From contig NC_081552.1 in assembly GCF_963082655.1 (NCBI RefSeq), positions 6,014,648 to 6,078,647 on the forward strand: a DNA stretch of 64,000 nt, read 5' to 3'. This stretch comes from Stomoxys calcitrans. Lineage: Eukaryota > Arthropoda > Insecta > Diptera > Muscidae. The first letter of the stretch is position 1; each line of letters opens with the position of its first letter. The notes under the pieces were generated by a model that saw nothing but the letters and a program-made list of their open reading frames with translations, did not search any database and had not been told where the DNA came from. A program made the position numbers and the translations under genes. Below, piece by piece: positions 22,483 to 34,288 of this stretch.

Positions 22483-24057
22483 TGATCCATAGTGGAACTA
22501 CTACTATATATGGAACAAAATTATCCTTTGAATATTAATATTCGGCAACTAAAGAGCTTTTAGTGAAATGCCATGCTACAAAAATGGTATATCGCTTGAC
22601 TAACAGTATAACAATATAACTGCCTTTATCTAAATCCATATGCATTTTTCGCTCGGAGGGTTTAGGACCATTCTTAAAAGACTTTATTTGAGCCCGATAT
22701 TCTCATGTGGATTTTGGGAGTGGGAAAGCACCAAGGGTGGTGGATGGTGGGTTAAGGGTGTAGTGTGAAACCCAAAAACGTGGTCCTGAAAGTGAGTATC
22801 AATTTCGTGCTCTGCTCCCAAATACCATTCAATTGAGCCTTATATAGCAATGGTCGGTAAATATATATGTCAGATTTAGGGGTGTTTTGGGGGGTGGTGT
22901 GGTCCCCAAACACTTAACCCTGAAAAATATATCAGCATCGGGATCTGCTCTCAAATATCATTTATTTAAACCTTATTTATATTGCCATTGGTTTAAGGGG
23001 AGTTTATGGGATGAAGTGTCCCCAGATACTTGACCCCAACAATTGGTTATGAAATTAGTTTTTCAATCTCAAATACCTTTCATTTAAGCCACATATTACC
23101 ATGGTCGGTAAATTGGTAAATCGATGTCCTAAATACATGGTCACACATTTGGATATCAGATTCGTATTCTACTCCCAAATACCTTTATTTGAGCCACATA
23201 TGAGAAAGTGGTAGACCTCCAGAAAATTGGTCCCGAAAGTGGGTATAAATTTTGCGCTCTACTCCCCAGTAACTGTCATTTGACACCCAGAAGCTCTTAG
23301 CCCTAAAAATTAAAAGCAATGTAAAATACTCTCAAATATCATTTACTATCAATAGCGAGCTCCACTCTCAGTTTGAGAAAATACTGCCTATTTGGGGTTT
23401 GTTATGGTAGTGGGACGTCCCCTAGACAATTGGTCCCGAATGTTGATATCAGATTCACGCTATACTCCCAAATACCTTTAATTTGAGCCCCATTTTTCCA
23501 TAGTTGGCAAACATGTTCGGATTGGTGGGTGTTTTGGGGAATGGGGCGGCCACTCAGTGACATGGCTTTGAAAATATACATCAGATTCGTGTTCTACTCT
23601 AAAAAACCTCTTATTTGAGCCTCAAATTGCAATGGTCAGAAAATTCTTCCAATTTGGGTGGTGTTATGGGGGTGGGGGGGCCCCATAGACACTTTTCCCG
23701 AATTGCTATAGTCGTAAATTTGTCCTCTTTGGGGGATGTTCTCGGGAATGGGCGGCCTCCAAACACTTGGTCCCACATCTGGATATCAGATTTGTATTCT
23801 ACACTCAAATACCTTTTATTTAAGCCCCATATTGCGATGGTCAGTAAATAAGTCCTGTTTGGGAGGAGTTTTTGGGAAGGGGTGGACTCCCAGAAATTTG
23901 GTCTCACATTTGGATATCAGATTAGTATTCTACTCGCAAATACCTTTCATTTTAATCCCATATTGCCATGGTCGGTCAATATGTCCGATTTAGGGGTATT
24001 TTTTGGGGGTTGGGGTGGTCCCCCAAACACTTGGTCCGACAATTGGATATCAGATAC
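22483..24057 (+). repeat. Tandem-unit dispersed element, left part, split by the BEL insertion
   Basis: The left end 'actagctgatcc' is followed from about 22650 by about ten diverged units of roughly 105-135 bp. Shared words are 'caaatacctttcatttgagc', 'ccatattgccatggtcggta' and 'gggtggggtggtccccc'. This family is different from the 153-bp DINE-like one. It continues after the retrotransposon at 34284. A related array occurs at 55376-55960. No protein is encoded. The class is unknown to me. Confidence 0.7.
24053..24057. repeat. Target-site duplication GATAC, left
   Basis: GATAC lies directly before the 5' LTR and again directly after the 3' LTR (34284-34288). This is the 5-bp duplication expected for BEL/Pao integration. 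Confidence 0.9.
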
Positions 24058-24845
24058 TGTTCAAGGTACGTTTGAACATGAAGTCATGTGCACCCATGTG
24101 CAGACATGCGTTCACGTATGCACATGACCCACTGTGCATAACGGTACATTGAAGTAAGTTCTTAATCGCTGATTCCGCCTTGATTTCATATTTGTTTACC
24201 TGGAATTGTTGCTTGTAGCTTGGAAAGTTGACCGTTTTCGCGGGGTCCAAGTGACAAGCAACAACCAGAAAAAGATCAGTCTCGTTTTAAATCTCAAACC
24301 CGCGCATCGTATTCTCTCCCCCTCAAAGTGAAAACCCAAGTGAAGTGAAAAGTAAAAAGTGAACATACATACAAACATATATAACTAGAGTGAACATTGC
24401 AACAATAAACTTTGAAACAGTGAACTAATATATTTAACATTTTAGATACAAAGTGACACAATAACAACCGACTCAAAAACCAAATCTACACTCGACCCAC
24501 AATTGCAACATCACAACAACCATAAGTGCGGGACACAACATACAACACCAACTAATTCTAATATTGCAAACCCCCCACCTGTTAAATACAATGTCTATCT
24601 ACTACAATCAACTATACTCATAATTTAAATTTTAATCTACTTACTACTGCTACTTAAATCTATGAATTGTGCTATCTAAACCTAAATATTTGCTACTTAA
24701 ACACTACGATCTACTTATAACTAATGAATTTAAATAACATAGAAAAGAACATCACAATAAACAATCACCACCACATTTGAATTTTAAACATAAAACTTCC
24801 TATGTTTTATTTCGGAAGGCAAAACCCTTAGTTTGACCCCAGACA
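24058..24845 (+). repeat. 5' LTR
   Basis: Begins TGTTCAAGG and ends CCCCAGACA. It contains an initiator-like TCAGT at 24276-24280, which could be the transcription start of a TATA-less fly promoter, a TATATAA word at about 24377, and an AATAAA at 24404-24409 that may act as the poly(A) signal. The assignment of U3, R and U5 is inference. Confidence 0.95.
24276..24280 (+). promoter_or_regulatory. Possible LTR initiator (TCAGT)
   Basis: It matches the insect Inr consensus, about 130 bases before an AATAAA in the same LTR, as expected for a short R region. There is no direct evidence of transcription. Confidence 0.4.
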
Positions 24846-24847
24846 TT

Positions 24848-24865
24848 TGGTCCTTCGAACCGGAT
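24848..24865 (+). promoter_or_regulatory. Primer-binding site
   Basis: TGGTCCTTCGAACCGGAT starts two bases after the LTR. The leading TGG pairs with the CCA end of a tRNA, as required to prime minus-strand DNA. I could not assign the tRNA species with confidence. Confidence 0.75.
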
Positions 24866-27046
24866 AAGTGGTTTTTTTAAATAATTAAAAAACCAAAAAT
24901 CAAAAAAAATTTTCTGTTTTCTGCCCAAAAATAATTCATTTTCATTTCAAAAGACCCAGTGACCGAAACACAAAAAATTCGCAACAACAAAAGTGCAGTG
25001 ACCCACCAATTAAAAGCAAAAGTAATAGAGAAAAGTGCGAAAAAAGGGTTGGTTACACACAACCGTACATACAGACACGTATGGACGGACGGCCAACATA
25101 AAACAAGTCACAAAACACATATAAAAGGAATTTGGCCATAGTTATTAAAAGCAACACAAAAAAAAAAAAATAATTTTTTTATTTATTAAGCGGCTTCGGA
25201 AACCCATAATTTGTTTTCTGGATTTATTTTATTAATTTCTTGATAAAATAATCCAACCAAAGCGGTATCAAAAAGAAATAAACAAAAAAAAGGAATAACA
25301 CAGTTGCAAAGGACAAGAAGACTCATACAAAATAAAAGATAATTAAATCAACAGGGTGACCCGAAGAAAATAAAAATAATTAAATTAAATTTGTAATTTG
25401 CAAAAATTAATTAAATTTTGTTATAAACCATTAGAAAAGTGTTACAGTGACCCAAAAAACGTAAAGTGACCCGCACAGTGGAACAGAAGTGGAAAAAAGT
25501 GGAATTTCAAAAATTATAAAAAATCAAAAAAATTTTAAATTGTTGAAAGAAGTTTCTTTGTGTAAAAATGAAAAAAAAGAGCTAAAAAATTGAAAAATTT
25601 AACAATTTATCGTCCAACCCAAAATTTATGTTAATTTTTTTCTACATATTTTGAAAAATTTTTTTCTCTAAAAATCATAAATTTTTCAGTATTTTAACTT
25701 AAAAAACAAATTAAAGTGTTAAAACAGAATTATGGGTTGCTCGATAAATTTGTAAATTTTATCCCAAACTAATTCTTTCTTTTTCTATCAAACATAAAAT
25801 ATTGTGCATTTTCAAAAAACCCCAACAAAATCAATTTCGTGCGTTCCGTGTAAAAACACAAAAACAAAAAAATCTACGCTCTGGGATAAAAACGGAAAAA
25901 CCCACTACAACGGTTAAATTCCCAAAACTTCATCAAATCAAAAACACTAAAACAACAAAATCCAAAACTCTAACGACACAAAGCTACAAAAATTGCAAAA
26001 GGCGCCAACACACAATTCTGGACCCAAGCCAAGCGCCCACCTACACACACACACACATACACACACATCAAAAAAGAAGCTTCAAAGTGAGTACCATTTT
26101 GTTTTTCTATTAAAGTGCGCTTGGGTATTACGTCATACATAACCTTTTTTTCAAAAAAGGAAAAGTTCATACATTTACCCAGCGTACTTTAATATTGTTT
26201 TTGATCGTTTTTGATTATGAATCGCTAATTCGGTTGTCTGATAAATTTTGACCCAAATTAATTTAATCCAAAGTGAATTTGACCCCGATATAGCAGACCC
26301 TACTTTCAAGGCAGTGTGTAGGATTTTTGGGACAGACAACCGCGGTATTTTTGTAAAGGAAAAAAAGTGTCTTAGTAAAAATTAAAGTGCTTTTAGAAAA
26401 GAAGAAGTTTTTTTATCAAGAATTGTTTTTGTGTGAGAAATAACGAAAATAATATTGCGTGCTGGCCTCATTTGTCTTCGAAATTTTAAAACTTCATTCT
26501 ATTGCACAAATTTAAGTGGAAACGGTCGGAAAGGACTGTGGTTGTTTGTGCAATCCTTTGTTGTTTTTTATACAGAAAGCAAATTGACCCAGCGAGTCGA
26601 AGCAGTATTATTGTAAAGAATCATCTAGTCCTGTATGCCAAATTTTGAAAAGTGAAAGTTTAATTTTTTTTTGGAGAAAAATAATTTTTTTTTTTTGCAA
26701 CTTTAATTCGCGCGGAATTAAATTGCTGGTGTATTGCGATTTGAAAGGAAAATTTTTCTTACAATTTTTTGCGGCTATTGTATAATCGATATCATCAGAA
26801 ATATTAACCTGTTTTTTTCTAGTGGCCCAGATAAAAACATTTATTACGAATTTTGTAAAAAGTTTCAGGTTTGACCCTTAGATATTTGACCCATCATCAA
26901 GACACACATTTTTTTCTTCGCATTAGGTTTTTTAGAAATAGATTTGATTTCTACAAATAACCAGTTTTTTGGACATTTTGTTGTAGATTTTTCCGTGGTT
27001 TTATAGTTTTTGAACCTATTTAAAACATATACAAGCCAATTACAAA
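24866..27046 (+). other. 2.2-kb leader of the retrotransposon
   Basis: Very A- and T-rich, with no long ATG-initiated frame but several short upstream ATGs (for example 25568, 25731 and 26213). About a dozen GACCC words are present, many as GTGACCC or TTGACCC. A consensus-like splice donor (CAAA|GTGAGTA) has its GT at 26087. A frame without an ATG is open from about 25748 to that donor. The leader could hold packaging signals, and the donor could serve a spliced mRNA for the downstream frame. Both are inference. Confidence 0.6.
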
Positions 27047-30000
27047 ATGGATAAGAATTTACGCGAAAAATTTGTAAACTGTGTGAATGATTTAGTAGAT
27101 TTTGAAAGCGTTTACTCCGCGGCTAAGTCAGATGATAATATACATTCGTTAGAAATCACGCGGGTAGAACTCAATTCTTTATGGGATCAAATCAAGAAGG
27201 CATACTTAGATTGTAGGGACCGCATTCCGGAAAAGGATGAGACACCTATAGATAAAACTAAACTTCGAAATAATTACAAACAGGCACTAGAAACTTATAA
27301 ACGGTGTTTAAGCTCTCTTAACGGAGAAATTTTGGCCCTTAACGAGCAACAAGATCAAGAAAAACAGGAGAGAATATCGATGACCCAACAGCGAGACAAT
27401 AATGATTTTTCACCAGCTCTAAGATTGCCGCCCTGTGACACAGATGTTTTTAAAGGGGGATATCGCGAATGGCCCACCTTTAGGGACTTATTTTCAGCAA
27501 TTTACATTAACAATTCAAAATTAAGTAAAGTCGAGAAGTTGTTTCACTTGACCCAAAAAACAGCAGGAGAAGCCCGCGAAATAATTTCCAATGTTCCACT
27601 GACCCATGAGGGTTTCGACATAGCGTGGAGAAATCTCGTTCATAGGTACGAAAATAAACGCATGCAGGTAAATGAGCAATTGCGAGCTCTTTTTAATTTA
27701 CCTTCGGTTTCCGTTGATAACGCGTCAACAATCCAGAAATTACAGCGCACTATAGGTAGTTGTACCCAAACTTTACAGACCCTTGAAGTAGAAACGGGGG
27801 GATGGGACCCAATCTTAGTTTATCTTGTGTCAACCAAACTACCAAGAATATTTTTAGAAGAATTCGAAAGCAGCCTAGCAGATTGTTCGTCTCTTCCATC
27901 GTGGAATCAATTAGATGTATTTTTGACCCATAAATTCAAGACCCTAGAATCAGTCGGCAATATCAAGCCACAATATTCGAGATATAATCAACCCAGATCG
28001 GAGTACGATAAGCGGGAAAAGCGAGTTAATAGTTTTCAAACAAATGTAAATCCCAATTTCAAGAACACGGGCTCAAGACCCAGCAACAACACACAATCAC
28101 ACTATAATGCTCAGAATAACAAACCGGTTTGTCAACTTTGTAAATCCAATCATTCTTTGCGAGAATGTCCTCAATTTCTAGAAAGGTCGATCAACGATCG
28201 AATAAACATTGTTAAGACAGGTCATCTTTGCTATAACTGCCTTTCTTCGGATCATGGAGTCAGGGAGTGTAAAAGTCGTTTTAGTTGTAGGGAATGTAGT
28301 CAACGACACCACAGTTTGATACATAAAGGCAACCAGAGCCAGTACCCTACAACAGGCACACACCAACGAGGCGGAGCACGACCTAGCACCAGTGCTGCCG
28401 CTCTCAACACTTTAGTTCAACCCGGTAGACAGGAAGCACGACCTAGCACCAGTGCTACTGATCCTACCACCCTAGCTCAACCGGTTAGCGAATACGCACG
28501 CCCTAGTACCAGTGCTGCCGCTTCAACCACCCTAGTACAACCATCGGTATCGCCAAATATACAGTCCACACCTTGTTTAGAAGCACCTTGTTCAACGACT
28601 TTGACACTTCAGGAAATCAGACCCACTCCGCAACCCAAAGAGACACTTTTGTTCACAGCAATAGTTCAAATCAAATCTAGAGGACATAGATATGATGCCA
28701 GGGCAATCATCGATCCTGGGTCACAATCAACTTTCATATCAGAAAAAATTAGAAACAAATTGCAACTTCCAACAGTTAAGAATTTAATTCACGTCACAGG
28801 TTTAAGCGACGCAGTTTCTGAAACATCGACAAAAGCTTGCGTCTTCAATCTTTGCTCACGAGTAAATCCTAGTTTTGAGCTGGAGGTTTGGGCACCAGTC
28901 TTAAAGACCCTACCTTCTCATTTACCAACACACAATTTAAGGCAAAATCAATTTGGAGATTTTGCACACCTTAGTCTCGCGGACCCCCGATTCTTTGAAA
29001 GTCGACCCGTGGACATGTTAATCGGATTAGATATTGGACCCCTTATATTCACAAAAGGCGGTACTATGAAATCCTTTGGATCACTTATAGCGCAGGACAC
29101 CGTTTTTGGGTGGATCATAGGAGGACCCATTACGGAAGACCCTAAATCCGACAGACAAATCACACTTTATAGTGCATCATCATTAGAAAAGATAATCACT
29201 CGCTTTTGGGAGGTGGAAGAGACCCCAAAAAAGGTTTTGAGGTCAGCAGAAGATATTTATTGCGAAAATAATTACAAAAATACAACACGACGTAATGAGG
29301 CGGGGAGATATATCGTAACTTTACCTTTTAAAAGCTGTTCAGAGATCGGTTCATCTAGGAACATCGCATTGGCACAGTTTCATAGAATGGAGAAAAAGTT
29401 GTCTAAGACCCCAGATATTAAAGCACATTATGATGCAGCCATATTAGAGTATTTGGAATTAGGACACATGAGGAAGGTAGACCCAAACAGCGTATACAAG
29501 ACCCCTCACTACTACTTACCTCACCATGCAGTTATCAAACCAGATAGGGTTACCACAAAACTTAGAGTGGTTTTTAACGCATCTAGCCCAACATCAAACA
29601 AGAAAAGTCTTAACGATATCTTACATACAGGACCCATACTTCAGCAAGACCTTGTGCTACAAGTGTTGAAATGGAGATTTTTTAAGTACGTCTTCAATGC
29701 AGACGTGACAAAAATGTATCGTCAGATCTTAGTAGACCCCAATCAAACAGCTTTTCAAAGAATTCTCTTTCGTAAATCAGAAAACCACCCAATTGAGGAT
29801 TACGAACTCTTAACTGTTACCTTCGGCATAAATTGCGCCCCATTTTTAGCGATTAGGACCCTTCTCCAGTTAGCAGAAGACGTGAAAGATTCTCATCCGT
29901 TAGGATCAAGAATTATTAAAGAAAATTTATATGTCGATGATGTATTAGCGGGCGGACACTCCATAGAAGAAGCTACAGCAGCTAGGAAGGAATTAGCCTC

Positions 30001-32476
30001 CGCATTAGAATCAGCTGGTTTCGAGCTAAGAAAATGGGCGTCAAATGACACACGTTTGTTAAAGGATTTAAATGAAGACATGCTTCTTCCAATAGATTGG
30101 TTAAATATTTCCGAAGCTTCTTCGACAAAGACCCTAGGAATTCGTTGGAATATATCAGGTGATAATTTCACTTTTACGGCCCCTACAGTTGAAGAAAAGC
30201 AAATGAGCACCAAGCGAGAAGTATTATCAACGATAGCAAAGTTTTTCGACCCATGTGGATGGTTAGCGCCAGTAATAGTTGTAGCCAAGTTAATCATGCA
30301 ACAGGTTTGGCCAGATAAGGTAGAATGGGACGACTCGTTGAAGCCAGTGACTCAAATGAACTGGAATAACTTTGTGAGAGGTAGCCATTCTATAGACACT
30401 GTATCGATACCAAGATGGGTTCGGTTTACACCTGCTAGTATTGTGGAAATACATGGATTCTGCGACGCGTCAGAAAGCGCATATGCAGCCACAATTTATA
30501 TACGCGTTGAACACATCGATAAAACTGTAGACACTTTTCTTCTAGCAGCCAAGACCCGAGTAGCCCCAGTTAAGAAAATCTCTCTGCCAAGGTTAGAATT
30601 ATGCGGTGCAGTTATGTTGTCAAAGTTAACAAATGCCATTGTGCCTAAGCTTCAATTATCAAAGTTTACGACCCATTTCTGGACCGACTCTACAATCGTT
30701 CTAGCCTGGCTACAAAAGCCACCATGCTCATGGAGCGCTTTCGTTGGTAACAGGGTTTCAGAGATATTAGAGAACGTCGGCGGTGAGAATTGGAAACATG
30801 TTGACTCAGAATATAATCCTGCAGATGTAGCAAGTCGTGGCTGTTCTCCTGACGACTTAATAGCTCATAATTTATGGTGGACGGGACCCCAGTGGCTCAA
30901 ATTGCCGCATGATCAGTGGCCGCAAGACCGAGTTAATACAGACACTAATCTTGAAGCAAAACAAGTTAAAGTATTCGCAACAGGCACTTTTGATGACCCT
31001 TTGACTCGATTTTCGTCTTTAGCTAGAGCATATCGTGTTTTGTCTTACGCAGTTAGGTTCTGGCGTAACACAGGTTCAACTAGATCCTCACTTAAAATTT
31101 CATCGCAAGAAATAACCAGCCCAGAGCTCATAGTGGCAACTCAGAAACATTACTTCGTTGAGGAATACAGTTCTTTGACCCAAAAGAAAAGGCTTTCACC
31201 TAGAAGTAGTCTTTTACCATTCAACCCCTTCATAGATAGAAAAGGAGTAATTAGATCCAATGGTCGTTTAGTTCAATCGCCAGCTTTGACGTACAGCGAA
31301 CGTCATCCAATCTTAATCCCATATGATTCGCGATTTGCACTCCTTCTAGTGGAATTTGTTCATAAAGTCTCAATGCACGGAGGCAATCAACTTATGACCC
31401 GGCTCATCCGTACGGAGTTTTGGATATTCAGATTGAAACAGTTGATCAAGAAAGTTATACACAATTGCAGAGTTTGTACCCTATATCGATTAAAGACTCA
31501 GACCCAAATTATGTCATCTCTTCCACCCGAGCGTACTACTTTATCCAGACCCTTTACGAATACAGGGGTAGATTTTGCAGGACCCTTCGGAATCAAAAGC
31601 TTAACAGCACGAGCGTGTTTAATAACCAAGGGTTATATCTGCATATTTGTTTGTTTTGCGACAAAAGCCATCCACTTAGAAGCAACAAGTGATTTATCGA
31701 CTCAATCATTTCTGGCGGCATTAGCTCGTTTCATAGGAAGGAGAGGGTGCCCAGAAAAGATATATTCCGACAATGGAAAGAATTTTATAGGCGCAGCAGA
31801 AATGCTCAAGAAAGATCAGAAAGAGTTTATGAAAAGTTTACAGAGCAGCGCCATTCAGCAACATGCTCATCAGAATTTAGAGTGGAAATTTATTCCTCCA
31901 GGAGCTCCCCATATGGGGGGATTGTGGGAGGCAGGAGTTAAATCATTCAAGATACACCTTAAGAAGTCTATGCCCAAAATGAACTTCACGTTCGAAGAAC
32001 TGTCAACCATATTGGCACGTATCGAGGCCTGCCTCAATTCACGACCCCTTAGTCCAGCTTCTGAAGACCCTAACGATTTAGCACCCTTGACCCCAGCTCA
32101 CTTCCTTATAGGCTCTTCCCTTTTGACCCCGGCAGAACCCGACATCTCAGAGGAGGACATAACGCTTGCAAATCGGTGGAAGAGATTAAAGATTATATCC
32201 CAAAACTTTTGTCAGAGGTGGAAGTCAGAGTACTTAAATGAGCTTCACCGTAGATACAAATGGAAGTATCAGCAAGATAACATACAGGTCAATGATTTAG
32301 TTGTCATCAGGGATGAGAGATATCCCACCGAGTGGAAGTTAGGACGAGTTTTTAAAACATACCCCGGTGTTGATCAGAACACTCGAGTTGTAGACATTCG
32401 AACTTCCAATGGCATAGTCAGTCGACCCATAACTAAGATTGTCAAATTATTCTCAGACACCCCTAGCAATTCATAA
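27047..32476 (+). CDS. gag-pol: BEL/Pao Gag-Pol polyprotein
   Basis: 1809 residues, uninterrupted. The capsid-like Gag region spans about 1-340. Three zinc knuckles follow: C362-C365-H369-C374, C395-C398-H403-C408, and C414-C417 with H421/H422/H426. A linker has three 20-residue repeats beginning ARPSTSA (444, 464, 484). Then come the retropepsin (D556-P-G), reverse transcriptase (D886; YVDD at 962-965), RNase H (D1140, E1184, D1214, D1260), integrase zinc site (H1439, H1444, C1474, C1477) and integrase core (D1509, D1575, E1628, with WEAGVKS), ending in a C-terminal basic domain (about 1700-1802). It makes virus-like particles, copies the RNA and integrates the DNA. The ATG is the first with a long frame and opens a typical Gag start. 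All catalytic residues are present. Cleavage sites are not assigned. Confidence 0.95.
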   Translation: MDKNLREKFVNCVNDLVDFESVYSAAKSDDNIHSLEITRVELNSLWDQIKKAYLDCRDRIPEKDETPIDKTKLRNNYKQALETYKRCLSSLNGEILALNEQQDQEKQERISMTQQRDNNDFSPALRLPPCDTDVFKGGYREWPTFRDLFSAIYINNSKLSKVEKLFHLTQKTAGEAREIISNVPLTHEGFDIAWRNLVHRYENKRMQVNEQLRALFNLPSVSVDNASTIQKLQRTIGSCTQTLQTLEVETGGWDPILVYLVSTKLPRIFLEEFESSLADCSSLPSWNQLDVFLTHKFKTLESVGNIKPQYSRYNQPRSEYDKREKRVNSFQTNVNPNFKNTGSRPSNNTQSHYNAQNNKPVCQLCKSNHSLRECPQFLERSINDRINIVKTGHLCYNCLSSDHGVRECKSRFSCRECSQRHHSLIHKGNQSQYPTTGTHQRGGARPSTSAAALNTLVQPGRQEARPSTSATDPTTLAQPVSEYARPSTSAAASTTLVQPSVSPNIQSTPCLEAPCSTTLTLQEIRPTPQPKETLLFTAIVQIKSRGHRYDARAIIDPGSQSTFISEKIRNKLQLPTVKNLIHVTGLSDAVSETSTKACVFNLCSRVNPSFELEVWAPVLKTLPSHLPTHNLRQNQFGDFAHLSLADPRFFESRPVDMLIGLDIGPLIFTKGGTMKSFGSLIAQDTVFGWIIGGPITEDPKSDRQITLYSASSLEKIITRFWEVEETPKKVLRSAEDIYCENNYKNTTRRNEAGRYIVTLPFKSCSEIGSSRNIALAQFHRMEKKLSKTPDIKAHYDAAILEYLELGHMRKVDPNSVYKTPHYYLPHHAVIKPDRVTTKLRVVFNASSPTSNKKSLNDILHTGPILQQDLVLQVLKWRFFKYVFNADVTKMYRQILVDPNQTAFQRILFRKSENHPIEDYELLTVTFGINCAPFLAIRTLLQLAEDVKDSHPLGSRIIKENLYVDDVLAGGHSIEEATAARKELASALESAGFELRKWASNDTRLLKDLNEDMLLPIDWLNISEASSTKTLGIRWNISGDNFTFTAPTVEEKQMSTKREVLSTIAKFFDPCGWLAPVIVVAKLIMQQVWPDKVEWDDSLKPVTQMNWNNFVRGSHSIDTVSIPRWVRFTPASIVEIHGFCDASESAYAATIYIRVEHIDKTVDTFLLAAKTRVAPVKKISLPRLELCGAVMLSKLTNAIVPKLQLSKFTTHFWTDSTIVLAWLQKPPCSWSAFVGNRVSEILENVGGENWKHVDSEYNPADVASRGCSPDDLIAHNLWWTGPQWLKLPHDQWPQDRVNTDTNLEAKQVKVFATGTFDDPLTRFSSLARAYRVLSYAVRFWRNTGSTRSSLKISSQEITSPELIVATQKHYFVEEYSSLTQKKRLSPRSSLLPFNPFIDRKGVIRSNGRLVQSPALTYSERHPILIPYDSRFALLLVEFVHKVSMHGGNQLMTRLIRTEFWIFRLKQLIKKVIHNCRVCTLYRLKTQTQIMSSLPPERTTLSRPFTNTGVDFAGPFGIKSLTARACLITKGYICIFVCFATKAIHLEATSDLSTQSFLAALARFIGRRGCPEKIYSDNGKNFIGAAEMLKKDQKEFMKSLQSSAIQQHAHQNLEWKFIPPGAPHMGGLWEAGVKSFKIHLKKSMPKMNFTFEELSTILARIEACLNSRPLSPASEDPNDLAPLTPAHFLIGSSLLTPAEPDISEEDITLANRWKRLKIISQNFCQRWKSEYLNELHRRYKWKYQQDNIQVNDLVVIRDERYPTEWKLGRVFKTYPGVDQNTRVVDIRTSNGIVSRPITKIVKLFSDTPSNS
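28376..28555 (+). repeat. 60-bp tandem repeat in the NC-protease linker (3 copies)
   Basis: Three consecutive 20-codon units each start with ARPSTSA and contain a TTLVQP- or TTLAQP-like end. The region is low in structure and lies between the zinc knuckles and the protease. It probably expands and contracts by slippage. Confidence 0.85.
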
Positions 32477-33457
32477 TCACATCAAAACACGGTACTCACG
32501 AGATTTTGGTTACAGATAAGGGCCGGATATTTACCTCGCCCAGAGTCCCCACGACCCGCCAGACCCACACGCCCTCGCTTCGACCCACGGGAACCCAGGT
32601 ATCGCCCCGCATCTTGGCAGTATGCCTGTGGCCTCTGCCAGGAGGACCACGCCATACGGTCATGCCCGCGGTTCCGGCAAATGACACCGTATCAGAGATA
32701 CGAGACAGTTGAGAGACGGAGTTACTGTCGGAACTGTCTGGCGCGCAGCCATCTGGCCCCAGACTGCCCCGTGGTCACTGCCTGCCGAACATGCGACTAC
32801 CGCCATCACACAATGCTGCATGGAGCCCCACAGCTTAGGGAGACATACGGCAGCTACAGCCCGCCCCCAATGGAGATTGCCAACCCACGGCAACTTGCAA
32901 TCGAACCAGCCAACCAGATGCCCATCGTCCAAGGCCCTCCCCCGGTCGAGATACCTTACAGCCGGGCCACTGTTTTTGTACCCACGGCGATGGTGGAATT
33001 GGCACCCGAGGAGCAGGACGATTGGGCTGGGGTACGGGTACTTTTGTGCCAGGCATCGACCATCACCCGAATCGCGGCAGCCACAGTAACTCGCCTGGGG
33101 ATACCAACGAGAGAGCGCAGAGGGCACCGTCTGGCAACAATAAGACTTCGGTCAAGGCATGCGTCGAGGAGGACCATGTATACCATCCGGGCAGTGGTGA
33201 CCCGGGATTTGCCGCGACGACCCTATTCAGATCCCATCATTCCCGACCCCACAAGCAGCCTAAGATCCCTTTCTTTGGCAGATGCTGACCCTAGGGGCAA
33301 CGAACCAATCGATGTAGAGGTAGGGGCCGATGCCTACGCCCACCTCCGGAGGAGTGGTGTTGTACAACCCGGATTGGGAGCCGTCTTCGCCCAGGAGACA
33401 GATTGGGGATACGTGTTCGTCGGCCCAGTCACCTCACAGGCAAGAAACCAAAATTAA
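32477..33457 (+). CDS. Env-position ORF: zinc-knuckle plus inactive retropepsin-like protein
   Basis: The frame is open from the codon after the Gag-Pol stop (TAA, 32474-32476) to 33457, in the same frame as Gag-Pol. Its first ATG is at 32681 (258 residues). Knuckle 1 (Cys codons at 32627, 32636 and 32663, His at 32648) lies before that ATG. Knuckle 2 is C16-C19-H24-C29 and knuckle 3 is C35-C38-H43-H47. The spacing is the same as in the Gag knuckles, including 21 residues between knuckles 1 and 2 and 6 between 2 and 3. Residues about 96-250 follow the Gag-Pol protease region: VRVLLC (118-123) faces ARAIID, so Cys123 stands where catalytic Asp556 should be; LSLAD at 197 and AQETDWGYVFVGPV at 237-250 also have clear counterparts. 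It is much more GC-rich than Gag-Pol. Its role is unknown: an RNA-binding accessory protein, a dominant regulator, or a captured host gene derived from an older element. Confidence 0.75.
   Translation, partial: SHQNTVLTRFWLQIRAGYLPRPESPRPARPTRPRFDPREPRYRPASWQYACGLCQEDHAIRSCPRFRQMTPYQRYETVERRSYCRNCLARSHLAPDCPVVTACRTCDYRHHTMLHGAPQLRETYGSYSPPPMEIANPRQLAIEPANQMPIVQGPPPVEIPYSRATVFVPTAMVELAPEEQDDWAGVRVLLCQASTITRIAAATVTRLGIPTRERRGHRLATIRLRSRHASRRTMYTIRAVVTRDLPRRPYSDPIIPDPTSSLRSLSLADADPRGNEPIDVEVGADAYAHLRRSGVVQPGLGAVFAQETDWGYVFVGPVTSQARNQN
32500..32516 (+). promoter_or_regulatory. Possible splice acceptor before the env-position ORF
   Basis: 'gattttggttacag' ends in AG at 32514-32515, and the ORF is open from 32516 on. 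Splicing here from the leader donor at 26087 would keep the phase but would not supply an ATG in the leader frame I traced. A candidate only. Confidence 0.3.
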
Positions 33458-33483
33458 AAAGGTAAGATGTCACTTCGTCACTT

Positions 33484-33495
33484 GGAGGGGGAGAA
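33484..33495 (+). promoter_or_regulatory. Polypurine tract
   Basis: GGAGGGGGAGAA directly abuts the 3' LTR and is the expected primer for plus-strand DNA synthesis. Confidence 0.9.
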
Positions 33496-34283
33496 TGTTC
33501 AAGGTACGTTTGAACATGAAGTCATGTGCACCCATGTGCAGACATGCGTTCACGTATGCACATGACCCACTGTGCATAACGGTACATTGAAGTAAGTTCT
33601 TAATCGCTGATTCCGCCTTGATTTCATATTTGTTTACCTGGAATTGTTGCTTGTAGCTTGGAAAGTTGACCGTTTTCGCGGGGTCCAAGTGACAAGCAAC
33701 AACCAGAAAAAGATCAGTCTCGTTTTAAATCTCAAACCCGCGCATCGTATTCTCTCCCCCTCAAAGTGAAAACCCAAGTGAAGTGAAAAGTAAAAAGTGA
33801 ACATACATACAAACATATATAACTAGAGTGAACATTGCAACAATAAACTTTGAAACAGTGAACTAATATATTTAACATTTTAGATACAAAGTGACACAAT
33901 AACAACCGACTCAAAAACCAAATCTACACTCGACCCACAATTGCAACATCACAACAACCATAAGTGCGGGACACAACATACAACACCAACTAATTCTAAT
34001 ATTGCAAACCCCCCACCTGTTAAATACAATGTCTATCTACTACAATCAACTATACTCATAATTTAAATTTTAATCTACTTACTACTGCTACTTAAATCTA
34101 TGAATTGTGCTATCTAAACCTAAATATTTGCTACTTAAACACTACGATCTACTTATAACTAATGAATTTAAATAACATAGAAAAGAACATCACAATAAAC
34201 AATCACCACCACATTTGAATTTTAAACATAAAACTTCCTATGTTTTATTTCGGAAGGCAAAACCCTTAGTTTGACCCCAGACA
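33496..34283 (+). repeat. 3' LTR
   Basis: 788 bp, the same length as the 5' LTR and identical to it in my line-by-line comparison. It is followed at once by the GATAC duplication. Confidence 0.95.
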
Positions 34284-34288
34284 GATAC
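34284..34288. repeat. Target-site duplication GATAC, right
   Basis: Second copy of the five bases at 24053-24057. Confidence 0.9.

Follow-up and report, generated by a model that had tools for sequence, protein, structure and literature searches.

A stretch of 64,000 nucleotides from Stomoxys calcitrans (contig NC_081552.1, positions 6,014,648 to 6,078,647 of the forward strand; here called the window) holds a young BEL/Pao long terminal repeat (LTR) retrotransposon with a third open reading frame (ORF3, 32477..33457, plus strand) after gag-pol. ORF3 is almost certainly an accessory gene made of a nucleocapsid (NC) region and a pseudoprotease. A preliminary description had assigned it to the env position of a young element, and this was confirmed: the LTRs were identical at 788/788 positions, and ORF3 lies between pol and the 3' LTR.

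Similarity of ORF3 to the NC-protease part of Gag-Pol

ORF3 is open for 326 residues between the Gag-Pol stop and its own stop. By BLASTP, its residues 39-324 aligned with residues 350-701 of the element's own Gag-Pol at 22% identity (E 8e-18). Alignment located zinc knuckle 1 (C51-C63, 32627..32665), zinc knuckle 2 (C84-C97, 32726..32767) and zinc-binding motif 3 (C103-H115, 32783..32821), and their spacing was the same in both proteins: C-x2-C-x3-H-x4-C, 20 residues, C-x2-C-x4-H-x4-C, 5 residues, C-x2-C-x3-HH-x3-H. The earlier claim that ORF3 copies the knuckle spacing of its own Gag was correct in this respect, but the spacers had been given as 21 and 6 residues. The Gag-Pol retropepsin (protease, PR; residues 525-705, 28619..29161) and ORF3 aligned at LSLAD and at the terminal G-W/Y..GP motif, as had been described. 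Replacement of the catalytic Asp-Pro-Gly (28715-28723 in Gag-Pol) was also seen as described; C-Q-A is aligned to D-P-G, and the dead loop C-Q-A-S (33047..33058) stands in place of D-P-G-S.

When structure prediction was run, the fold predicted with good confidence for residues 166-317 (32972..33427) matched solved retropepsins, in agreement with the proposal that ORF3 is an NC-protease paralogue. The element's own PR, with an alignment built from ORF3 relatives, served as the control. A flap segment of ~12 residues is missing in ORF3: the predicted model had 2 residues between strands 211-214 and 217-226, compared to 17 residues across the flap (54 to 72) in the own-PR model, where the predicted local distance difference test score (pLDDT) was low.

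The window protein (P0001) was unmatched in Pfam up to E 1, and no Pfam family was found for ORF3. Among 51 members searched, one matched gag-asp_proteas (E 0.0022), one Asp_protease_2 (E 0.053), and five further families were each matched by one member (0.014-0.097). The PDB sequence search with ORF3 gave no match up to E 1.

The ORF3 family and its position after pol

Homolog searches were seeded by shared 5-residue words. The first search returned 52 proteins, and a profile search, which scored the 7996 candidates with most words in common, returned 57; these sets overlapped, giving 60 distinct standalone proteins including the window's own. The named members came from Haematobia, Musca and Stomoxys, plus one from Calliphora vicina, that is, muscid flies (Muscidae) and one blow fly (Calliphoridae).

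The Gag-Pol set comprised 111 proteins, 110 from the database found via NC-PR and the window's own. A second ORF3-like stretch was present at the C-terminus of 9/111 models in 4 species: P0054 and, weakly, P0091 (Stomoxys), P0057 and P0086 (Haematobia), P0058 and P0071 (Musca autumnalis), and P0059, P0074 and P0082 (Calliphora). Neither P0079 (two pieces through an N-terminal protease fragment) nor P0123 (a single match split) was an ORF3 fusion. The remaining 100 models had no ORF3 stretch, which is uninformative on the genomes because a model stops at the stop codon. Numbered on the window Gag-Pol (1809 residues), the joins were at 1792 in P0057, 1799 in P0058, 1766 in P0059, 1765 in P0074 and 1764 in P0082; in three of the four species the join falls in the last 45 residues of Pol. 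The join was exactly at the ORF3 start Met in P0057, P0058, P0059 and P0074. These models, in which we take an intron to join pol to ORF3, establish the position of the gene and only suggest splicing.

The module was incomplete in five of the nine fused pieces (P0054, P0071, P0082, P0086, P0091), perhaps in part as a gene-model effect. Even so, in the other elements checked ORF3 was a conserved protein and not random broken sequence, as its reading as a paralogue had anticipated. No earlier description of such a BEL gene was found in the literature searched, which was chiefly open-access, and a report elsewhere is possible.

Conserved zinc ligands and loss of the catalytic Asp

The alignment contained 108 Gag-Pol segments together with 60 standalone and 9 fused ORF3 rows, 69 in all. 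Every one of the 108 Gag-Pols had the catalytic Asp, compared with 1/69 ORF3 rows; 2 further ORF3 rows were gapped there. Asp was replaced by Asn, Cys or Ser in 55/69 rows and the following residue was Gln in 56/69; by these counts most loops share a new form, unlike the outcome of random decay. The median distance from the catalytic position to LAD was 77 residues in ORF3 (64 rows) versus 89 in Gag-Pol (108 rows). Judged from sequence by its catalytic Asp and flap, ORF3 is probably not an active retropepsin.

The sole ORF3 row with Asp, reading D-S-A-S, came from Haematobia P0086. This ORF3-like piece (P0086 residues 1300-1600, Haematobia irritans) lies after pol in another BEL clade, and represents either an intermediate stage or a separate origin.

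In the 13 zinc-motif Cys/His columns the residue was retained in 59-69 of the 69 ORF3 rows, many of the exceptions being gaps; the second His of motif 3 was Asn in eight rows. The signature NCLA[RK][ST]H, which reads NCLARSH in knuckle 2 of the window copy, was found in 59/69 ORF3 rows, including 6/9 fused, and in 0/108 Gag-Pols.

Descent

FastTree was run on 162 rows (54/60 standalone ORF3s and 108/111 Gag-Pol segments, those of <250 residues having been dropped) and placed all 54 ORF3s on one side of a branch with support of 1.0. A tree of 70 chosen rows (30/69 ORF3 and 40/108 Gag-Pol) gave ORF3 as one group of 29 rows (100/99). With the Haematobia P0086 piece, whose long branch was flagged by the tree tool, the group had 30 rows (88/72). 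Joining ORF3 to its own Gag-Pol clade was not rejected (p-AU = 0.374 in the approximately unbiased test; quick tree, F_P0086 and G_P0152 out). ORF3 may have come from that clade or from an older branch of BEL elements.

The window ORF3 was paired by FastTree with Haematobia P0003/P0004, and the window Gag-Pol with Haematobia P0055/P0056. For linked elements, meaning those with both parts in one protein or the window's own, ORF3 and Gag-Pol distances were correlated over 8 elements (r = 0.91; 14/40320 permutations as high) and over 7 (r = 0.80; 61/5040 permutations as high).

Coding signal, start and protein properties

The chance of an open frame over the 939 bases from the likely splice acceptor was 6e-5 by base composition, and 0/5000 first-order Markov simulations of the same span were open. 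The G+C content at third codon positions (GC3) was 0.60 in ORF3 versus 0.38 in Gag-Pol, and the first three 300-base blocks of ORF3 had values of 0.57-0.63 versus 0.34-0.47 for Gag-Pol blocks. Across 31847-33457 it climbs, from 0.34-0.38 over most of Gag-Pol to 0.47 at its end and ~0.6 in ORF3. The raised GC3 could reflect codon choice related to translation, or a constraint acting on the RNA.

A splice-acceptor-like site (32500..32515, plus strand) ends in TTGGTTACAG, 3 bases upstream of the family start position (32519-32521), and spliced expression of ORF3 is likely. The family N-terminus is commonly M-A-[AG]-Y-L-P. A database ORF3 protein with 99% identity to the window copy retains the start Met, so intact ORF3 copies exist. 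ORF3 had been described as kept intact, and for the window copy this did not hold: Arg stands at the position of the family start Met. Downstream of it, the first in-frame start codon is at 32681, beyond knuckle 1, and normal ORF3 is therefore unlikely from this insertion; it probably makes none unless an upstream exon supplies the start. A splice-donor-like AAGGTAAGA (8/9 consensus) is found at 33462, directly after the ORF3 stop.

The hydropathy scan, the only method applied to this question, found no transmembrane-like stretch in the window ORF3 (top 19-residue mean 1.24); across the family the median maximum was 1.08 and the highest member reached 2.31. ORF3 proteins were basic (median pI, the isoelectric point, 9.4; n = 51), and their tail was Arg-rich, with medians of 12 Arg and 0 Lys per 50 residues (n = 51). 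An env glycoprotein was rejected as the identity of this basic, Gag-derived protein without a transmembrane-like stretch.

Possible roles of ORF3

The best explanation, to which we give about an even chance, is that ORF3 encodes a Gag-derived accessory protein that is non-enzymatic, binds RNA, acts in trans and is made from a spliced RNA. In a fly BEL/Pao lineage, a BEL NC-protease segment would have been duplicated into the space that separates pol from the 3' LTR, after which catalysis was presumably lost with the Asp and flap, while a basic zinc-knuckle pseudoprotease of ~310 residues was kept. Translation would be from a spliced subgenomic RNA with its acceptor just ahead of the start codon. 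Binding of RNA or ribonucleoprotein is proposed because the protein is basic, the zinc knuckles are kept and the fold is dead. The knuckles would bind the RNA or ribonucleoprotein of the element, and the retropepsin fold would serve not as an enzyme but as a module for self-association or for contact with Gag-Pol, with ORF3 supporting or tuning RNA selection and particle formation in trans, in a Gag-like way. The RNA-binding, trans-acting role taken by itself falls slightly short of an even chance, and we infer a dimer role for the fold.

Mean pairwise identities were calculated on 64 ORF3 rows (P0002, F_P0054, F_P0086, F_P0082 and F_P0091 excluded) and 25 own-clade Gag-Pol rows. Knuckle 2 had an identity of 0.85 in ORF3 (61 rows filled) versus 0.68 in the Gag-Pols (22 rows), the ORF3 figure being an upper value because searches seeded by words select for those that are conserved; such inflation affects the fused pieces, which were retrieved by way of Gag-Pol, to a lesser degree. 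For PR the values were 0.51 in ORF3 (60 rows) versus 0.72 (25 rows), and for the linker between knuckles 1 and 2, which is less kept in ORF3, 0.54 versus 0.66.

Several points weigh against the explanation of ORF3 as a trans-acting accessory protein. That inflation of the knuckle 2 value is one, and the two sets compared are not matched for divergence. NC as a whole was no better kept in ORF3 (0.646) than in Gag-Pol (0.655). The aligned first residue of the window copy is Arg, and its acceptor-like site has a moderate pyrimidine content of 0.5. Within 24058-33500 no splice donor matched the consensus at 9/9 positions; three that match at 8/9 lie upstream of ORF3. The fused gene models are predictions, and four of their joins (1054, 1281, 1728 and 1534) fall earlier, well before the end of Pol. 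The distance correlation was weak without the Haematobia outlier P0086 (6 elements, r = 0.48, 61/720 permutations as high).

After a trans-acting helper comes a self-encoded brake working through the Gag-Pol protease, which we consider unlikely. Here ORF3 would pair in a dominant-negative manner with the Gag-Pol protease or Gag NC and limit processing or copy number, as the Ty1 factors p22/p18 do. A retained fold without the catalytic Asp is the expected look of a poisoning subunit, and the C-terminal strand motif T..G[WYF]...G is common to 60/69 ORF3 rows and 77/108 Gag-Pol segments. In the available parts of two reports (PMC4599808, PMC8458377), p22/p18 are, like ORF3, a Gag-derived second product; they come from sub-genomic RNA, and p22, from an alternative sub-genomic transcript, interferes with Gag. 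ORF3 differs from p22/p18 in being a separate, diverged NC and pseudoprotease. It aligns solely to Gag-Pol 350-701, after DUF1759 (135-276), that is, to the NC-PR part without the capsid part, whereas the minimal Ty1 factor p18m is an all-helical domain related to ARC and capsid (PMC8458377, as far as available). Moreover, selfish copies should readily lose a separate brake gene, but members of the family are still present in Musca, Haematobia, Stomoxys and Calliphora, and within ORF3 the PR is less conserved than the NC (0.51 versus 0.65). A separately expressed pseudoprotease regulator, with knuckles that bind its own RNA and a fold that pairs with the Gag-Pol protease to time or limit processing, is similarly improbable.

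Binding of a host factor, with ORF3 as a decoy or antagonist of defence or as a Rev-like export factor for unspliced RNA, is less likely again. The Arg-rich tail together with the knuckles would suit such a role, as would the stronger divergence of PR in ORF3 than in Gag-Pol (0.51 versus 0.72, in unmatched sets), but the tail has only 10 and 12 residues in P0164 and P0166, the Calliphora and ENA members.

It is very improbable that ORF3 is a rapidly evolving passenger with no protein function, a duplicate retained through chance or solely for its RNA or DNA. The absent start Met in the window copy and the incomplete module in 5/9 fused pieces (the latter perhaps partly a gene-model effect) would fit a passenger, and the raised GC3 could point to constraint on the RNA. 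Against this, zinc ligands are kept in 59-69 of 69 rows, most of them down to ~35% identity to the window protein, and the dead loops share their new form (Asn, Cys or Ser, then Gln). Stomoxys ORF3 was 69-70% identical to the nearest Haematobia ORF3, which matches Gag NC-PR (67-69%) and is below reverse transcriptase/integrase (82-83%), the Haematobia ORF3 and Gag-Pol proteins in this comparison not being known as linked. A captured or domesticated host gene family merely located here has next to no probability, although many members are annotated as standalone genes, since the window ORF3 lies inside the LTRs of a complete element, between pol and the 3' LTR, on which ground a domesticated gene was rejected for this copy, and 9/111 Gag-Pol models in 4 species end in ORF3.

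Comparison with known systems

The NC-protease of BEL/Pao Gag-Pol (Belpaoviridae) shares with ORF3 the knuckle spacing, the predicted retropepsin fold, LAD and the terminal G[WY]..GP. ORF3 differs in the lack of Asp in 68/69 rows (2 of them gaps), in the spacing of 77 versus 89, in its signature NCLA[RK][ST]H and in being a separate frame after pol.

The following comparisons draw on the available portions of the reports cited. The env of insect endogenous retroviruses also lies between pol and the 3' LTR and is expressed from a spliced subgenomic RNA, as ORF3 likely is (PMC12992720); unlike it, ORF3 has no transmembrane-like stretch and is basic and Gag-derived. Bdelloid rotifer LTR elements resemble the fly element in having a non-env extra ORF after gag and pol, but those ORF3s are GDSL esterases, DEDDy exonucleases and env-like or transmembrane proteins, and none in the available text is an NC-protease copy (PMC5408684). 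The additional sense ORFs of plant LTR elements likewise lie between pol and the 3' LTR, some of them spliced, but the proteins that they encode differ; the main text of that review lacks the terms "gag-like", "zinc" and "duplicat" (PMC7264820). The extras described in the env slot are of outside or unclear origin: viral glycoproteins, esterases and exonucleases (PMC12992720, PMC7264820, PMC5408684).

In the element studied here, the env slot is occupied by a copied middle part of Gag-Pol that has become non-enzymatic and is conserved across Musca, Haematobia, Stomoxys and Calliphora. It offers a natural case for asking what role an NC-protease unit has once cleavage is gone, and raises the question of retroelements regulating their own protease through a dead paralogue. 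On the reading of ORF3 as a pseudoprotease regulator, genes in the env slot elsewhere among BEL elements, the Drosophila roo "env" being one, may need to be read again with an ORF3 profile; some BEL "env" calls are possibly wrong.

The element and its genomic setting

The element is a young BEL/Pao LTR retrotransposon by its LTRs, target-site duplication and Gag-Pol domains. The 788-bp 5' LTR (TG...CA, 24058..24845) and the 3' LTR (33496..34283) are flanked by the target-site duplication GATAC (24053..24057 and 34284..34288). Gag-Pol (27047..32476) contains DUF1759, Peptidase_A17, the integrase zinc domain and DUF5641; RVT_1 and rve were listed under their Pfam cut-offs. Its NC-PR part was 99% identical to the Stomoxys calcitrans protein P0054. 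A putative primer-binding site, proposed from position only, lies just inside the 5' LTR (24848..24864), and a polypurine tract precedes the 3' LTR (33484..33495); the LTRs, Gag-Pol, the primer-binding site and the tract are on the plus strand.

No further copies of ORF3, Gag-Pol or the LTR were found in the window at E 1e-3, the Rfam scan of the element gave nothing at the gathering score, and IMG/VR scans with ORF3 and Gag-Pol as queries gave no relatives.

The leader ahead of gag (24846-27046, 2.2 kb) had a single listed plus-strand ORF of at least 80 aa (103 aa). Within Gag-Pol, three tandem 60-nt repeats (28375-28554) between NC and the protease encode ARPSTSA-type linkers. The element is inserted in a diverged repeat array (22770-23980) in which a 60-nt unit occurs 8 times and a 75-nt unit 6 times at an identity of at least 60%. 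The array seems to continue downstream from 34282, as the sequence directly behind the 3' LTR has a 29/35-base match to the left flank.
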